Part shown: positions 1 to 41,277 of the stretch, one piece after another
How the letters are laid out: each line of letters starts with the position of its first letter
How positions within the stretch are numbered: the first letter of the stretch is position 1
Assembly (NCBI GenBank): GCA_009602725.1
Contig: WELB01000217.1
Coordinates: 56,282-97,558 of the forward strand
From: Spirogloea muscicola
Taxonomy: Eukaryota; Streptophyta; Zygnematophyceae; Spirogloeales; Spirogloeaceae
DNA: 41,277 bases
Direction: 5' to 3'
Translations under genes and position numbers: made by a program
Notes under the pieces: generated by a model
Told to the model about the DNA's origin: nothing
Database searches by the model: none
The model's input: only the letters and a program-made list of their open reading frames with translations

Positions 1-3000
1 GCGGCGGCGGCGGCTGCGGGGGCGGCGACGGACCTGCCGCCAGAGATCATGGCGCACGTCCTGGCGCTCGTCCCGGCGACGCGCGACCGCAACGCCTGCG
101 CGCTCGTCTGCCGCGCGTGGCGACGCTGGGAGCGCGAGACGCGCGCCGCGCTGCACCTGCGCGGCTCCATCGCCGGGCTCTCCGGCATCGTCGCCGCCTT
201 CCCCTCCGTCACCGACCTCGACCTCACCGACGTCAACCCCGGCTGGGACGGCAGGTGAGGCGACGGGACCGTGGTCTCCACAACCAAAGGTCAAGGGTTC
301 GAGTCCCCTTTCTCCTGACTCTGCAACTCTTCTTTCAAGACGGCTCTGTCGCCGCTGACGCCATTAGAGCTGCCGCTATCCTGCGGTATATAAGTTGACG
401 AGCTCGGCGTTGTGAATACTTGGTAGATTAGTGCAGTGCCAGTCTCATGTCTTGGCGCTTTGCTGCATGCAGCGAGGTGGAGCTTCGTGGGATTTTCCAG
501 GCGGCCTTCCCGCACCTGCGCAAGGTCAAGGCTAATGTCAGCCCCTCGGGCCTCAAGTACATCCGCCACTGCTGGCCCGACCTCCGCGAGGTACGATGGG
601 CCGGGGCCGCTGTTCGAGCCCTCTCCTGGACCCTCACTGTGAAGCTTCTAAGCCGTGCATTACAAGTATTAGTGTTCCAGTGAAGACAGATGTTATCGTT
701 ATCATCGTCAATACATGCCATAGTTGCGCCTAACATCAGCACTGGTGATTGTGCTGGGGAATTATCAGGCGCAACTGTTACACAGTACACAAATAAGTGT
801 TTTCCAGGCATTGTCATAAACAATACAGCTTAAGTCAGCTATCATAAAGTGACTGGCAGTCATCTGGAGGACAGCTGGTACTTACTCAGTGTTGGGAAGT
901 GCAGGTGGTCATTGGGCACTGGGACGGGCCAGACGACTTCCTGGAGGGCCGCCACGTTGCGGACCTGCTCGCGACGTGCTCACGCATCACCACCCTGGAC
1001 CTGTCGTGGAGCCGCACGTGCGACTTCAACGACCTGCCGCGCGAGCTCGGGCGCCTCCCTTTCGTCCGCCTGCGCGCCCTCAACCTGCTCGGCGGGCCCT
1101 GCAAGCTCCGCGACGCCACGCTCGCCGGTCTCGCGCAGGCCTGCCCCAAGCTCGAGGTCCGCTTCTGAAACCTCCACGAGATCCGGAGCTGATGCTCTTG
1201 CAATCGTTGCTGTTCCTCAGTACGTAGTTAGCTGCTAAGCTGGGCTGGAGTGTCAGCTGAGCGACGCTCACTGCGGTGCTTTTGCTGCAGGAGCTGTGCT
1301 TCTCCATTGGCCAGGGGACGGTCAGCGATGCGGGCATCGCAAAGCTGGCCGCCGGCTGCCGCGAGCTGCGGCTGCTGAGCATCGAGGACGAGGCACACGA
1401 CATCAACAACGAGCACAGCCTCACGGGACCCATCACCGCGCTTTCGCTCTACCAGCTGGCACGGTATTGGTACGTATCATCAACCCCCACCTGACCAATT
1501 GAAAGAAGTTGTACTGACCAATCAGCTTTATTCGTTTTGCTATTTGGTAATTAACTTCCCTCGCCACGACTTAAGATCGTGCAATCTAGATGTCTATATG
1601 CAGCCTTCTCTTTGCTGATGCTTCTGTTAGGGATGTGCATTAAAGACGTATGAAGTATTGGTCTGAATACTTCTCCCTGTGCGATTGCAGCTGCAACCTG
1701 CGAGTGTTGTCCCTGGTGCTGGCCAAGTACGTGCGGAGCTCGGGCATAGGCTTCGAGTGGCTCGGTGCACGCTGCCCACGCCTGCAGACGTTGCGCATCG
1801 CACGCTTCCTGGGACTTTGCTCCGCTGAGCCAATTGGCGAGAAGGGCGACCTCTGCCGGCCCGCCAACTCAGGCTTCGAGGTCTGGTCATGGGCTCCCAC
1901 ATCGTGCTCCATCAGCCGCTTGTGGTTGTATCCTTGCACCACAACAGTGATACGTCATGCCGCCACAACGGTGATGCGCCGTGCTTTCAAGTCTCAGCAC
2001 AATCCACTGGCAATCCCTTAAGGTTGCTCTCTGACGCAGGGGCTGGCTGCATGCCGGAGCTTGACTGAGCTGGAGATGCAGAGCTGCCAGGACCTGTCCA
2101 ACAAGGATGTGCGTGCCATCCTCGCAAGCTGCACAAAGCTTCGGCGTCTCCAGGTCAGGAATAGACATTGCTTGCATCCAGTCGTATACTGCATAACAGT
2201 TTAGGAAACCTGAATGACTTGTTGAATAAGTGACACCTCTTCCCAGCTTTCTGCTGCATCTGGAAGTAGTGTGCAGTATAGGACTGGCAACATTGTGATC
2301 ATCTGTGCTATGATGTTAATATTTTAACATGCCCGGAGATACGTCCCAGATCATGGCCAGTCAGAAGCTTACGGCGAAGGCCTTCAAGACAACAAGGGGC
2401 ACTAAGTGCTTGGCCACTCTGCTGGACCACCTTCGAATACTCCAGGTGTGCAGGGCACTCCGGCTGTTGTTGGGAAGGTCCCTTTGCCTCCGGGCGAACT
2501 CGTCTTGCAGCAGGAATACTGCTTTATGAAGAACCAAGCAAATTCCGACGGTTGCCGAATAGGATACATCAATAACATGTTGTAAATCTACTAATGTTCA
2601 CATAAGTGACATAGTTCACGCACACTGTCAGTGGATGCCCTTTGTTGACTTGAGTGAAAGTGGGTTGGCCTCGTCTGTCCCCAGTGCGACCGTGTCTCGA
2701 CAGTCGACGTTGTGCAGCGGGTGCGGCCGATGCGGGACTCCCTGGTCGGTCTGGAGCTGACGTGCAACTGGCAGCCGGGGGCCCCGTCCGAGCACCTCCT
2801 CCCGCCGCTGCCGCTCCAGGGCTTCCGCTCCCTTGTCTCCCTCTACCTCCAGTTCCGGATTGGGGCCTCCCTGCTCCCCCTCGCCAGGTAGACATACTCT
2901 TCATTGTGCAATTTATAGCTACCTCGATGATCATTCACATACAAGAAATGTGGTTGGCTAGTGTCGATGAGTCATAAAGAGAAATTTTTGTTGATTTACA

Positions 3001-3980
3001 TGAGTAGGAATCAGCTGCACGAGATAGGTAGCGAGCAGTAGCCACTGCACTGAATCACATGCGGTGACAAATGTGCAAAGTGCCTGTTTAATATAGTAGT
3101 CCAGGAGTGCAAAGGTGTTGCAAGAACGTTTCTTAATTGTGAGCTGCCTGGTGTCACTGCGTTCATGCAGAGCCGGGCTGGAGACATGCACCAATCTGAA
3201 GTTTGTCTACCTCACCGTGTACGGCGAGATTGATGCCCTGGCTGTGTGGACCAGCCAGGCGACGGACCTCTCATTCCTCACTGGCTGCCAGGCGCTCGAC
3301 TTCCTCTACATCGCCATGGAGCGCACTGGCGGCCCCCGGGCCGTTGTTGACCAGTGGGAGCGCGGCTACATGGAGGTGGGGTCACCAAGCACACATCAGA
3401 TAGCCGGAGATATAGCAATCTTTACATGTGATGCAACTGAGATGAGTTATGAAAGAAGGTCGACATGGTATGCATTTTAAGGCTTAAATTCTTCGATACC
3501 TGAACAGATGCCAACCTGCACTTAGCAGATGCCAAGTATGCTTGCACTACTCACTGACTTGATTTATAAATTGACCGAAGAGTTCTGTAAATGTATGAAA
3601 CAACTTGTGAAAAGCAGAAGCTACCGTGCCTGGACCTTTCCGAGATGGAGTACCACCCCGCTCCGAACGAGCACGGTCTGGACATGGTGTCAGTGGAGGC
3701 GGCGGAGATCTTGTCGCGCTGCCGGCTGCTGCGCAAGCTCTCGCTCGGCGGTGTCGCCCGGCAAGACGCGCTCACCGTGCTGCTCGAGAACCGCAGCCTC
3801 CGTGACGTGCTCTTCCACCTGCCGCCCGACTGCTCCGACAGCTTCCGGCAGGAGTTCTACCGCCGGCTCACGTCGCGTGACTACTCCGACCAGGTTCACG
3901 TGGCCAAGCCGCGTGCGGCCGCCCTGCCTGAGCTTCCGGGCCCCGTTACGCGTCAGCGGCGGCGCCTGCTTGAGCTATGA
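1..3980 (+). CDS. MAX2: MAX2/D3-like F-box leucine-rich-repeat protein, 5' partial, about 10 exons
   Basis: Proposed exons: 1-254, 473-590, 905-1156, 1291-1469, 1691-1880, 2040-2153, 2350-2445, 2685-2887, 3171-3375, 3618-3980. All have GT/AG borders and the phases join without a stop, giving at least 657 residues. The start lies upstream of the window; it opens in an Ala run, then an F-box (LPPEIMAHVLALV, RNACALVCRAW). LRR segments follow (LLATCSRITTLDLSW, CPRLQTLRIARFLGLC, LASCTKLRRLQ, AGLETCTNLKFVYLTVYGE). The order, and the end (QWERGYMEKL, LDLSEMEYHPAP, NRSLRDVLFHLP), match MAX2/D3 rather than TIR1 or COI1. In land plants MAX2 is the F-box subunit of an SCF E3 ligase in the nucleus; it works with D14/KAI2 receptors in strigolactone and karrikin-like signalling and targets SMXL repressors. 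Least sure: the exon at 2350 and the C-terminus. A donor-like site after codon DQ near 3894 could mean a further exon. Confidence 0.85.
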
Positions 3981-4720
3981 CTCCTAAGTGACTGCTCAGC
4001 TATGCTACCCATTAATATGCCCATTTTTAGTAAACCCCTGGACTTCAAATGCTTCAACTTGGATACTGACTTTCAGAGTCCTGTCTAGACAATAACCTCA
4101 TGTTCTGTGGCAACCTTCGTTTCTGCACTTACAGTAACCTGTGTCTTCCTATGTCTTCTTCGTCCCAGTAGTGGCATATCCATGTTCTCGCAGAGTCCAT
4201 GTGCAAGATTCCTGCAAGGTTTGGGTCAATCGTCAATCGTTGACCCCCATTGATGTAATTTCTGCCCCTGCAAAAGAGCTCTGTAAAAGTAACATGCTGT
4301 TTGCTCCTCGGCAGTCCTGAGCACTTGCTGTAAGAAATGCATCGTGCATCATGGTCTTTCTTTGCAGATGCAAATTCATACTTTGGAATACTATGAGGAC
4401 TCTGGGAAATTGTGGGTATGTACCATAGTTGTCATCTCTACAGTAAGCACTTGTTCAGGGTACATGATTAACATTAGGTGTAAAAGTGACGAAGGCGTCA
4501 GAGGGCCGGGCTTAAGATTACTTATACTGCAGTCTTTGTACTGACAAGGACTTCCCATACAGTGAGCTTTGCGCACTAGAGTTGCGTGGCTGTACGGCCA
4601 ATCTTAACAGATCCTCAAGCCTGTTCCGAGTCAATAATTGTTCAGACAATGTCCACATCTGGCACATGAGAGAGGGACAGTGCTCCTAGCTCGTGGTTAA
4701 CTGTCTGTGTAATTGACTAC
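3981..4720. other. Convergent intergenic region between MAX2 and DHAR
   Basis: This stretch separates the MAX2 stop from the DHAR stop and should hold both 3' untranslated regions. It is AT-richer than the flanking exons. Open frames are short and lack a recognisable domain. I see no repeat of the hairpin family here. Confidence 0.6.
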
Positions 4721-6680
<1,960 letters not shown>

Positions 6681-20165: not shown

Positions 20166-21319
20166 CGGCCAGTGGGCAACTGTGCCTTGGGTGAGGGGCT
20201 TCAGCCACTGCTACCCCAGGGCGAGGCATGGGTGTGGATGTACATGGACAGAATTGATGGCGGCAGGGTATTTGTATGCTTGAGCAAGGAGTATATGAAA
20301 CTCCAAATGTTGCTGTAGAATCAGAGGCAAGATTTACCTTCTCGTGCCGGCCACTGAAGCAAGGGGGCGCTCCTGCAAAGCTTTTCCTGCCACTCCGATG
20401 CAAGCCAAAGGCAGCATGACAACGGTAGCAACACATTTGAGAGGTCAACATGGTCAGAGCATGGCACAGGATAAGCAATGATTTCGATGCATGATGTCGC
20501 ATAAAGAGTTACTCACACCAATGATTGCACGCGATTCAGTTCCATCCAACTGTTATTTGGATAATTCAGTCATCAGAAACTGACAACAGTAACCGGACAA
20601 GCCAAGATGCTAGACATTTTATAGGACCACGTCGTGTCATAGTTTTCTATTCAGAGTATATGGTCGTGGTTTGAAGAGCCACTTTACAGTGACAGTGTCT
20701 ATGGCCAAGCTTCGTCTGGCAGGAATGACATGATTCAGTCAATCCACATTTCAGACGCCACGTGTTAATAGTGCGCCATTTCCTACTACATTGAATTTAC
20801 AGTGAAACTAGCAGAAGTCGTGGACCACATTGAGGTTATTTGCATCGAAGCTAATGTCTGCTCTGCCACGAAGATGGTGGGTCACATGCTTTGATAATGC
20901 CAATGGCAATGCTACATGCAGGAAAGTGACTATGCAACAGGGATGCAGTCTCGCATCCTGTGCATCACAATGGGTATATCATCGCATAACAAAGCTTGAA
21001 GGTGTTCACCTTCCAGCAGCAACAACAATTTGTATGTATTGTCAACATGGTCGACGGACCCAATGACAGCATTAGGTTTTAGGGTTAAGGCTTTTAGGGT
21101 TAAGGGTTTAGAGTTCAGGGGTTAAAGGTTTGTCAATCTGTTACACTCTCAGTCAGATAGCAGCTCCAGTCTAAAAGAATCATAAAGTTGGCACGGTATC
21201 AGGGAGTATTGGTATCGACTTGGCGTGCTGCTTAGCTAGCTAGCCAGCCAATTTGACGCACAGTAGCTGCGATCCATTTTTTCAATGCTAGCAGACTTCT
21301 TCTCTAGCTTCTAACAAAG
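20166..21319. other. Intergenic, 3' flank of beta-helix gene 1
   Basis: I see no supported gene. Open frames are 60-120 codons with no recognisable motif. The one notable structure is the telomere-like stretch at 21.07-21.13 kb, listed separately. Confidence 0.5.
21073..21131 (+). repeat. Degenerate interstitial TTTAGGG telomere-like repeat
   Basis: Seven or eight imperfect units of the plant-type TTTAGGG repeat: TTTTAGGG, TTAAGGC, TTTTAGGG, TTAAGGG, TTTAGAG, TTCAGGGG, TTAAAGG. On the minus strand this contains telo-box-like AACCCTAA. It lies about 190 bases beyond the stop codon of beta-helix gene 1. Confidence 0.75.
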
Positions 21320-24309: not shown

Positions 24310-24328
24310 TATTCTCTCTCTCTCTCTG

Positions 24329-24423
<95 letters not shown>

Positions 24424-24424
24424 N

Positions 24425-24481
<57 letters not shown>
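24310..24481 (+). repeat. (CT)n microsatellite, about 170 bases
   Basis: Almost pure CT with a few imperfections at the left end and one N at 24424. It begins about 500 bases upstream of the beta-helix gene 1 start; on that gene's coding strand it is (GA)n. Confidence 0.97.
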
Positions 24482-24484
<3 letters not shown>

Positions 24485-29068: not shown

Positions 29069-29266
29069 AGGCGTGCCCGATCGCGCTCGGCTCTCGGCCT
29101 GGCCCACCAGCTCCCCAAGGAGGAGGGAGGACGAGGGGTCGTGGCAGGCGAGCGGCGAGGCGGCGGGGCGAGGCTCGTGGCCCTCCTGCAGCCGGCGCTG
29201 CAGATCCCCTCCCTCCCACTCGGCTTGCTCGATCTGAGGGACACTCATCTCTCTCTCCCTCTCTCC

Positions 29267-29655
<389 letters not shown>

Positions 29656-38525: not shown

Positions 38526-40750
38526 AGGAGACGGCCTTGGGGTTGGGCTGAGAGTGGGCGTGATGATGGTGGGATCCTTACTGCCGGACGCTGGAGACGG
38601 CGGCGGCGGTGACAGGTGAGGCGGCGATGGCGTCGGAGGCGGCGACCTTGGTGGCGGCAAAGGCCGCGGCGGCGGCGGCGACGGCTGCGGTGGCGGCAGT
38701 GAGTGGGGCGGCAATGGCGGCGGCGGTGAAGCTTTCAACGGAGGGGCGAAGGAGTGGCTCGGTGGCGGCTGCAGTGGCGACGGCGGCGAAGGCGGCGCCG
38801 TTGCTGCAGCGGCGGCGGCGTAGTGAGGTCCCTGCTGCACGCAGCCGCCGCGTGCGAGGTCGTAGTTGAGCTGCACCAGGAACGGCTGCCCGTCGGCGCC
38901 CACCAAGTTGGTAGCTGCCGCCTGAGAGCACACCACATACATACTGCCACATACAAATCAGCTACAGAAAGTCATGCGAAAATACATTGAGTCAATGTTG
39001 CTAATTGTCCACAAAAAAGTGGTAAGAAGCGTGAGGGTCGCCTAGATGCAGATGAGGTCAAGGATGGGATCATTACAAAGCGGCTCTGGAAGCTAATGGC
39101 AGGTAGCCAGCAGCGCAAGCTACAGGATATAATAGTTTCAGCTTAGGTCCACGAATTAATACAACTTTAGAGGTGTTGCTCCGAAATGCGGAGGTAGATG
39201 GGTGTAGAGATGGGCCGCACCGGAGGGCGTGGCGTAGGTGGTGCCGAATTGCCAGGAGCAGAGGTCGGCGCTCTCATCGCCGCCGCTGGGCTGGCCCCAC
39301 GCGGAGATGAGCGGGTCGTTGGCCGCTTCTGCGAGCTCGTGCGCGAGGATGGAGATCATGCCGTCAAGGCCGTCGTCACCGTGAGGCGCCACAAAGGGCG
39401 AGCTGATGCAGGTGCAACACAAGCGACGAGGGGCCTCAAGCAAGTCAGTCCTATTGTACAACCACTAGGTGACAGCAGACAATTGAGGCTTTAGAAGCTT
39501 AGTCGCAATTACTGTGCTTAAGAAACTTGAAGGAGGGAGAGAAAAGAGACAAGCGGGCGAGCTCTCACCCGCCACCATAGGGCGTGCATGCAGTAGCACA
39601 CTGTGTTTGTGCGTTGCCCACAAAGACGTACTTGAGCGTCGCTAGGGACGGCCCAAAATTGTCCCACGTGTGATATCCGCACATGGCGCTCATGCAGAAT
39701 TCGCGCACGACGACGTCGGCGGAGGTGAGCACGACGTAGAGGCCGCTGTCCGTGTCGTATGGCAGTTGGCCCGCGGCGGTGTACGTGCTGATCAGGCTGT
39801 TGATGCTGTCGTCTGTTAGCACGCCCTTGCCAAGCGAGTAGCTGTCATCCAGCTGCCCCTTCACGGCAATGGCAGCCTGCATTATGGTAATGCGGAAAAC
39901 AGAAGTGTGTCAGTCAGTCATGGCGGCCATCTGAAAGCAGTGGTTAGTGCGCTATGAAGGCTGGAAATAAGAGCAGTGGCAAGCCTGTAAGTATAGATTA
40001 CAATCGATAAGATTCGACCTGCTTTACTTGCGTGGTGACTTCTGCTAACGATGCAGCATATGCCATCATACACTTACCTCCATATGTATATATTAGCATA
40101 TTTAAATTCTGAAAGCACGATAAGTAGCTGATGTGCATAAATGACAGCCGATTCAGGAGAAAAGGGAGAAGCGTTACCGAGACGGCGGCGCCGGTGCTGT
40201 CGGTGTAGCCCGTCTGGATGTCCCACCAGCCCTGCACGGTGGGCATACCGGCGGGCAGCAGGCCCGGCGGCGCGCCGCCGCTGAGGGAGGCCAGGAAGCT
40301 CAGCACGACGGCCTTCTCGGCGGCGCTCCAGCCGCCATACCAGATGACGTAGACGTTGACGCCACGCGACATAATGGGCCCGCCGCGGTACGCCGGCGGC
40401 GCCGACTTAGCGAAGCGGGCGCCGCCGCCGAGGGCACCGCCGGCGGCCGCTCGGCCGAAGCCGCGCGGCCGCACGTCGTCGTCGTCCGGCGCAGTGCCTG
40501 GCCTCCCCCCATCCCCTCCTTCCTCCTCAAGCCCTCTCCTTCTCCCCGCCGCCATGGCGGCTCCAGAGAAGCCATGGCCGGCCCTCCTCACAGTCGAGAC
40601 CCCCAACAATGGCTGCCGTGCTCCGCTACCGGTGCCGGTGGCTACGAGCACAGAAGCCCTGCTCGCCCCGCATGGCTGCAGCGAGGAGAGGGCGACCGCC
40701 GCCACTGCGAGCGCTGCGGCCGTAGCGAGGAGACGGCTGCCGGAGCGCAT
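38499..40750 (-). CDS. EXL: EXORDIUM/PHI-1-like secreted protein with proline-rich C-terminal extension, 4 exons
   Basis: Minus-strand exons: 40750-40178, 39876-39569, 39402-39221, 38914-38499, about 492 residues. The exon 3 donor and exon 4 acceptor are the least certain; an acceptor at 38922 is an alternative. EXORDIUM/phosphate-induced-1 proteins are apoplastic and linked to growth and carbon status. MRSGSRLLATAAALAVAAVA is the signal peptide; a low-complexity Arg/Gly stretch follows. The family blocks are NVYVIWYGGWSAAEKAVVL, VQGWWDIQTGYTDSTGAAVS, YVVLTSADVVVREFCMSAMC, KYVFVGNAQTQCATACTPYG, DGLDGMISILAHELAEAAND and GADGQPFLVQLNYDLARGGC. Plant members are about 310 residues and end near there. 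Here about 105 residues rich in SPPPP-like motifs follow, as in hydroxyproline-rich wall proteins. The stop lies inside a dispersed hairpin repeat. Confidence 0.85.
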
Positions 40751-41277
40751 GGCGGCAGCCGCAGCCGCTGCGCTGGGCACCGGCGCTGAGCGAGCGTGGC
40801 ATGGCGGAGCTTGCCACGACGGCAGCAGACTGCAGAATAGTGGAGGCGGAGCCCTCTGAGGCGGCGGCAGTGGTGGCGGCGGTGGTGGCGAGTGAGTCAA
40901 TGGGCAGTGAGAGGATGGCGGCAAGGGGGGAGGAGAGAGGCGGGGGAGGAGGGGGGTTTGCTCGCTGTTGCTGTCGCTTTCTCTCTCCCTCAGCGGAAGA
41001 AGAGTGCGGCTGCTGCTAGAAGCGGCTGTACAGGCCAGCCAAGTGAATGCGGAGAGGGGGTGGTGAGCAAGGTGGGGCCCGAGGAGGGCCGAGCCAACGA
41101 GGGCGGAGGGAGTGAGAGGGAGTGGCGCCTCGAAGCCGGATAGCGGAGGGAGGGGAGGCGCCCGGCCGACTGAGAGAGCGGGAGAGAGGAAGAGAGAGAG
41201 CGAGAGAGAGAGGGGCAGAGAGAGGCAGAGAGGGAGGTGGGAAGGGAGGGAGGATAGGGGGGGGGAGGAGAAGAGAG
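40751..41277. promoter_or_regulatory. 5' flank of the EXORDIUM-like gene with purine-rich tract
   Basis: GC-rich to about 41150, then a GA-rich purine tract from about 41160 to the window end (imperfect GAGAGA, GGGAGG). On the coding strand it is pyrimidine-rich. The tract starts about 410 bases upstream of the ATG, a placement like that seen at EXO1 and both beta-helix genes. Confidence 0.45.

Follow-up and report, generated by a model that had tools for sequence, protein, structure and literature searches.

A diverged, intron-rich second MAX2-type gene in the alga Spirogloea muscicola

The window analysed here, a stretch of 41,277 nucleotides of the Spirogloea muscicola genome (contig C217, bases 56282-97558; the genome comprises 153 Mb in 471 contigs), begins with an F-box/LRR gene, referred to below as gene B, which is a second, diverged MAX2 gene under strong selection. 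The gene of the same genome that is closest to true MAX2, referred to as gene A, is also intron-rich. All evidence considered, B is very probably a functional but divergent MAX2 paralogue and not the MAX2 orthologue. A literature search of one collection found no published description of gene B.

Structure and conservation of gene B

Gene B occupies positions 1-3980 of the forward strand of the window and consists of ten exons separated by nine GT-AG introns, the phases of which are 2,0,0,2,0,0,0,2,0. When joined, the exons give a single open frame of 657 amino acids, which is followed by a stop codon and is incomplete at the 5' end. The features are the following.

1..254, + strand: exon 1, encoding the F-box and the first part of the LRR domain; incomplete at the 5' end, with a run of N directly upstream
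473..590, + strand: exon 2, preceded by a phase 2 intron; GT-AG, equal length in the three copies
905..1156, + strand: exon 3, preceded by a phase 0 intron
1291..1469, + strand: exon 4, preceded by a phase 0 intron
1691..1880, + strand: exon 5, preceded by a phase 2 intron
2040..2153, + strand: exon 6, preceded by a phase 0 intron
2350..2445, + strand: exon 7, preceded by a phase 0 intron
2446..2523, + strand: beginning of intron 7, with unusually high conservation between the copies
2685..2887, + strand: exon 8, preceded by a phase 0 intron
3171..3375, + strand: exon 9, preceded by a phase 2 intron
3618..3980, + strand: exon 10, preceded by a phase 0 intron; last LRRs, diverged C-terminal region and stop codon
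3891..3977, + strand: C-terminal tail of 29 codons, following the site where D3 has its terminal Asp and absent from the five other aligned MAX2-family rows

The ten exons and nine introns had been proposed in the first-pass annotation, the coordinates and counts of which proved correct: the exons form one open frame, and GT-AG borders were found at 27/27 introns when the nine introns were examined in each of three genomic copies. Pfam analysis of the protein detected the F-box and LRRs, the F-box_5 match in exon 1 reaching 35.3 bits for a cut-off of 25.5. The GC content is 68% in exons and 47% in introns. The sequence directly upstream is N in all three copies and the start codon is not in the sequence; this run of N is probably an assembly gap. 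It cuts the three copies at approximately the same GC-rich, alanine-rich 5' end (window position 1, and near 4220-4400 in L005 and L006).

The three copies of B are located on C217 (the window), C56 and C68. Exons 2 to 10 are identical in length across the copies (9/9); the start of exon 1 is N in C56 and C68 and thus not comparable, and its remainder aligns without gaps. The introns contain gap columns in nine of nine cases in the comparison with C56 and in eight of nine in that with C68, and they diverge by 7.9-26.5% between copies. For the coding sequence, dS is 0.130-0.147 and dN 0.0056-0.0069, corresponding to a dN/dS of 0.04-0.05. Over the last 100 amino acids no nonsynonymous difference was found against 6-10 synonymous ones, and the 29-residue tail likewise shows none, with 1-3 synonymous differences per pair. 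Gene B is intact and under purifying selection. That it might instead be a pseudogene or a gene-model artefact is scarcely credible: the start codon is not visible and the model was built from DNA alone, but the three copies are open over their sequenced part, all their introns have GT-AG borders and their dN/dS is low.

The start of intron 7 (2446-2523) is nearly identical in the three copies despite an 8-base insertion in C56. A search for an RNA element in this intron identified no Rfam family at the gathering threshold in the window, and the z-score of the fold, -0.73, indicates an ordinary folding energy.

Elsewhere in the window, a match to the N-terminal domain of glutathione S-transferase is found downstream of B on the opposite strand (5758-5952), and an open frame at 40001-41275, also on the minus strand, matches Phi_1 (phosphate-induced protein 1) with 46 bits. 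The window further contains two long TC dinucleotide tracts, at 24313-24482 (85 copies) and 29248-29655 (204 copies), and a short interstitial array of AGGGTTT-like units at 21074-21124, which we take to resemble the plant telomere repeat.

B and KAI2 are each found at three places in the genome, and the six SKP1-domain matches fall by score into two sets of three, which fits a triplicated genome. Passages of a preprint on S. muscicola (PMC9915684) mention "all the three copies" of one feature.

Family membership and the closer MAX2 gene

A phmmer search of the B protein against the PDB returned eight distinct sequences at E values up to 0.001, five of which are MAX2-type, the others being TIR1, COI1 and FBXL2. 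The best match was 9kkx_C, which is named only "F-box protein" in the PDB, its source not being stated (E 5.9e-50, 174 bits, in two stretches covering query residues 1-431 and 454-603). Four D3 constructs named "MAX2 homolog" matched with E values of 2e-36 to 6.9e-32 (114-129 bits), and TIR1 through its F-box only (E 8.2e-12, 48 bits). B was also aligned to the MAX2-type chains, with which it is collinear over most of its length, at 143-186 bits compared to 64 for TIR1 and 40 for COI1; this B-TIR1 score exceeds that of any other MAX2 row to TIR1. Three MAX2-type references were used, namely AtMAX2 (a sequence without a database accession), D3 and 9kkx_C. B thus has the F-box, the LRR array and the long collinear similarity, above that to the other FBXL proteins compared (those of the PDB, TIR1 and COI1), by which the MAX2/D3 family can be broadly defined. 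Judged by its sequence, B is a MAX2-family member, and the family assignment of the first-pass annotation is borne out by the 174 bits to the best MAX2-type chain versus 48 to TIR1. An identity to the MAX2 references of only 28-29%, and the fact that an AtMAX2 query reaches B through the F-box exon only, could be taken to mean that B belongs to another FBXL family, TIR1/COI1-like or generic, and merely resembles MAX2. This is highly improbable in view of the long collinear match and of the rejection of a clade of B and TIR1 in the trees described below.

Further genome matches of the B protein, on C161, C28 and C180, represent a second MAX2-type gene, gene A, for which exon models were built in the copies on C161 and C28.

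L016 (C161), 2451-6089: copy of gene A
L018 (C28), 2741-6339: copy of gene A
L017 (C180), minus strand: copy of gene A

The copies on C161 and C28 have a complete frame of nine exons encoding 702 amino acids plus stop, with eight introns in phases 2,0,2,0,2,0,1,2; the copy on C180 is without the exon 3 acceptor and the exon 4 donor that are present in the other two. Between C161 and C28, dS is 0.142 and dN 0.034, and the constraint on A is weaker than that on B.

The first-pass annotation had gone further and called the window gene the MAX2/D3 orthologue, a claim that had to be abandoned. When the genome was searched with the AtMAX2 sequence, A came first and accounted for 15 of the 31 matches, all at E 1.5e-6 or better, whereas the B trio was reached only through the F-box exon, at E values of 5e-5 to 3e-4. 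Two other loci, C95 and C123, which match AtMAX2 by their LRRs alone, score above B in this search, and with the same query B is not in a reciprocal-best relationship with land-plant MAX2. A reaches 456 bits against 9kkx_C and 400-406 bits against the D3 constructs. Its identity to the three references is 36-38%, compared to 28-29% for B, and A and B are 30% identical to each other. The search order, the bit scores and the identities together indicate that A is the better MAX2 orthologue and B a divergent paralogue. The third-position GC content (GC3) is 0.87 in B and 0.56 in A, and the higher value may exaggerate the apparent divergence of B.

Passages of PMC5490202 describe MAX2 as single-copy and conserved, without additional or divergent copies in any non-angiosperm lineage. 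Recent duplicates aside, this single-copy state does not hold here, as types A and B both occur, at three places each. It might be argued that B simply is the MAX2/D3 orthologue of this alga, since its best solved relatives are MAX2-type proteins and since one of four trees contains A and B as a clade (90/99), which would make them co-orthologues. We consider this very improbable, because the A trio resembles the MAX2 references far more closely, be it in sequence identity, in score or in the C-terminal motif, and B is treated as a divergent paralogue in what follows.

Introns and the age of the split between A and B

Four trees were computed, with ten rows each except for one with nine. For the tree that joins A and B, the alternative topologies were not rejected (p-AU 0.26 and 0.16). 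The other three place B outside A and the references with supports of 62/55, 100/99 and 81/87, and joining A and B in these trees gave p-AU values of 0.246, 0.006 and 0.162, in the same order. The tree with the 100/99 support and the p-AU of 0.006 uses TIR1 as the sole outgroup and is open to long-branch attraction; B is the longest ingroup branch. A clade of B and TIR1 was rejected (p-AU 1.8e-12), and TIR1 and COI1 pair without B at 100/99-100 in all three trees that hold both, B not being nested in TIR1/COI1. Grouping B with TIR1 and COI1 together amounts to the same split as B outside A and the references, and was not rejected (p-AU 0.28). In the phylogeny with TIR1 and COI1, which the first-pass annotation had named as a check on its assignment, a union of B with TIR1 is firmly rejected, and three of the four trees, two of them weakly, leave B outside A and the references.

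In the alignment of the two proteins, five of the nine B introns have an A intron at most 18 nt away (P 0.004, random placement). Two are within 3 nt (P 0.022), one being 3 nt away in the same phase and the other 1 nt away in another phase, so that a single one combines this proximity with the same phase (P 0.12). As the periodicity of the LRRs could produce such closeness, we do not claim a shared ancestry of these introns. Passages of one paper describe MAX2 as intronless in any species examined; an intronless coding sequence, which is not strictly defining for the family, is found neither in B nor in A. The contrast with intronless land-plant MAX2 drawn in the first-pass annotation can thus be maintained, with nine introns in B versus none reported in that paper, and both MAX2-type genes of this alga are rich in introns. 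Because the comparison covers one algal lineage, intron loss in land plants and intron gain in algae are indistinguishable, and a few more genomes could tell whether the land-plant lineage lost its introns.

As to the timing, an old split between A and B is somewhat more likely than a young one. B might, as a possibility that falls a little short of even, be a younger and fast-evolving duplicate of A within the algal lineage, a proposal that differs in timing only and is compatible with B being a functional, divergent MAX2 paralogue. It agrees with the tree joining A and B, with the failure of two of the other three trees to reject that grouping, with the long branch of B and with the single B intron that agrees in phase with an A intron no more than 3 nt away. 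Against it stand the three trees with B outside A and the references, of which the one rooted on TIR1 only rejects A plus B, the mostly different intron positions of the two genes, and the 64-bit score of B to TIR1. A further reading, to which we likewise give somewhat less than even odds, is that two streptophyte MAX2 lineages existed before land plants. A would have kept the switch based on the C-terminal Asp, and B, a switch-free SCF adaptor, would have lost it or never had it, this second lineage then being lost toward land plants.

C-terminus, receptor setting and comparison with known systems

According to passages of PMC11371169, the final helix of D3 alternates between engaged and dislodged states, and citrate is able to displace D720 at the C-terminus. 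This terminal Asp is the last residue of full-length D3 chains and of A, whereas 9kkx_C has the Asp at position 765 and continues for six more residues, to 771. The C-terminal helix motif ending in Asp (D720 of D3) is present in A and missing from B. Among 23 columns of the helix region that are invariant in the references, A keeps 16 and B 6; the F-box has 13 such columns, with 11 retained in A and 10 in B. In the LRR segments B keeps 30-46% of the reference-invariant columns, conservation being counted by region and not by receptor-contact residue, and some contact of B with KAI2 may persist.

Since B has other residues at the position of the last helix of D3, and 29 more beyond it, it should not use a D3-type switch. 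B would serve an SCF ubiquitin ligase as its substrate adaptor, with the F-box of B docking SKP1 and the LRR horseshoe binding the target. The F-box is above the Pfam cut-off and the genome has six SKP1-domain matches, SKP1 docking itself being a prediction. B would then have kept the docking end and rebuilt the receptor end; it would be unable to use the switch in the manner of D3, and would either read a different receptor or substrate or work switch-free, with A presumably carrying out the KAI2-coupled work. Taken by itself, this mechanism of an adaptor without a D3-type switch is plausible, but we would not rate it quite as an even proposition.

KAI2 is found on C4, C7 and C11, with three exon matches at each place and the motifs GHSVS and GHLPQLSSP. 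The algal protein scores 469 bits to PpKAI2-like C versus 326-340 to D14-type chains. Searches for KAI2-type genes beyond this trio, with AtKAI2 as the query at E values of at most 0.001 and with the algal protein at E values of at most 1, gave only two weak matches with internal stops. These KAI2 searches lend no support to the idea that B is paired with NK2, a receptor type of Zygnematales described in passages of PMC5490202.

For SMXL, the Pfam profile NBD_SMAX1 gave no candidate in the genome; the profile matched in 8 of the 14 control genomes, bacterial or other, two of them over the cut-off, and the search has a low sensitivity here, as the genome has a ClpB-like gene and yet gave no candidate. 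A SMAX1 query gave four weak matches, with the top one looking like ClpB by eye, in an exon-by-exon search that does not prove absence. These null results, from searches that are not strong, agree with passages of PMC6728956 reporting SMXL to be absent from algae. A TIR1 query identified no orthologue in the genome, three of its five weak matches being the F-box of B itself, and the AtMAX2 search shows that the same method detects relatives of about 36% identity. Passages of PMC9270392 are in line with the lack of a TIR1 orthologue here.

No SMXL target was found in the genome, yet A has the C-terminal Asp. If the two-lineage explanation is true, the Asp switch of A would be older than the SMXL targets, and B would show the work of the module before strigolactone signalling. 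With a canonical MAX2, a diverged and selected one and KAI2, and without detected SMXL or TIR1, this alga offers a natural comparison for determining the order in which the parts of the KAI2-MAX2 module arose.

Compared with known systems, B is similar to MAX2/D3 (AtMAX2, and the D3 chains of PDB 5hyw, 8if6, 6bro and 7sa1) and to the 9kkx F-box chain in having an F-box followed by an LRR domain, mostly collinear with theirs. It differs from them in its identity of 28-29%, the loss of the C-terminal helix motif, the added 29-residue tail and a long insert between LRRs that is much reduced in B, and from MAX2/D3 in its nine introns, MAX2 being reported to have none. TIR1 and COI1, which are hormone co-receptors, share the F-box/LRR architecture but match B more weakly, TIR1 by the F-box alone in phmmer, and the tree test rejects a grouping of B and TIR1. 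The MAX2 of Coleochaete nitellarum and the weakly similar Klebsormidium sequences mentioned in passages of PMC5490202 are, like B, charophyte MAX2-type, a likeness drawn from descriptions and not from sequences. Gene A is, like B, an intron-rich MAX2-family gene in three copies; the two are 30% identical. A differs in having eight introns, most of which are placed differently from those of B, in retaining the DYYPxPE..EMR motif and in having the terminal Asp as its last residue.
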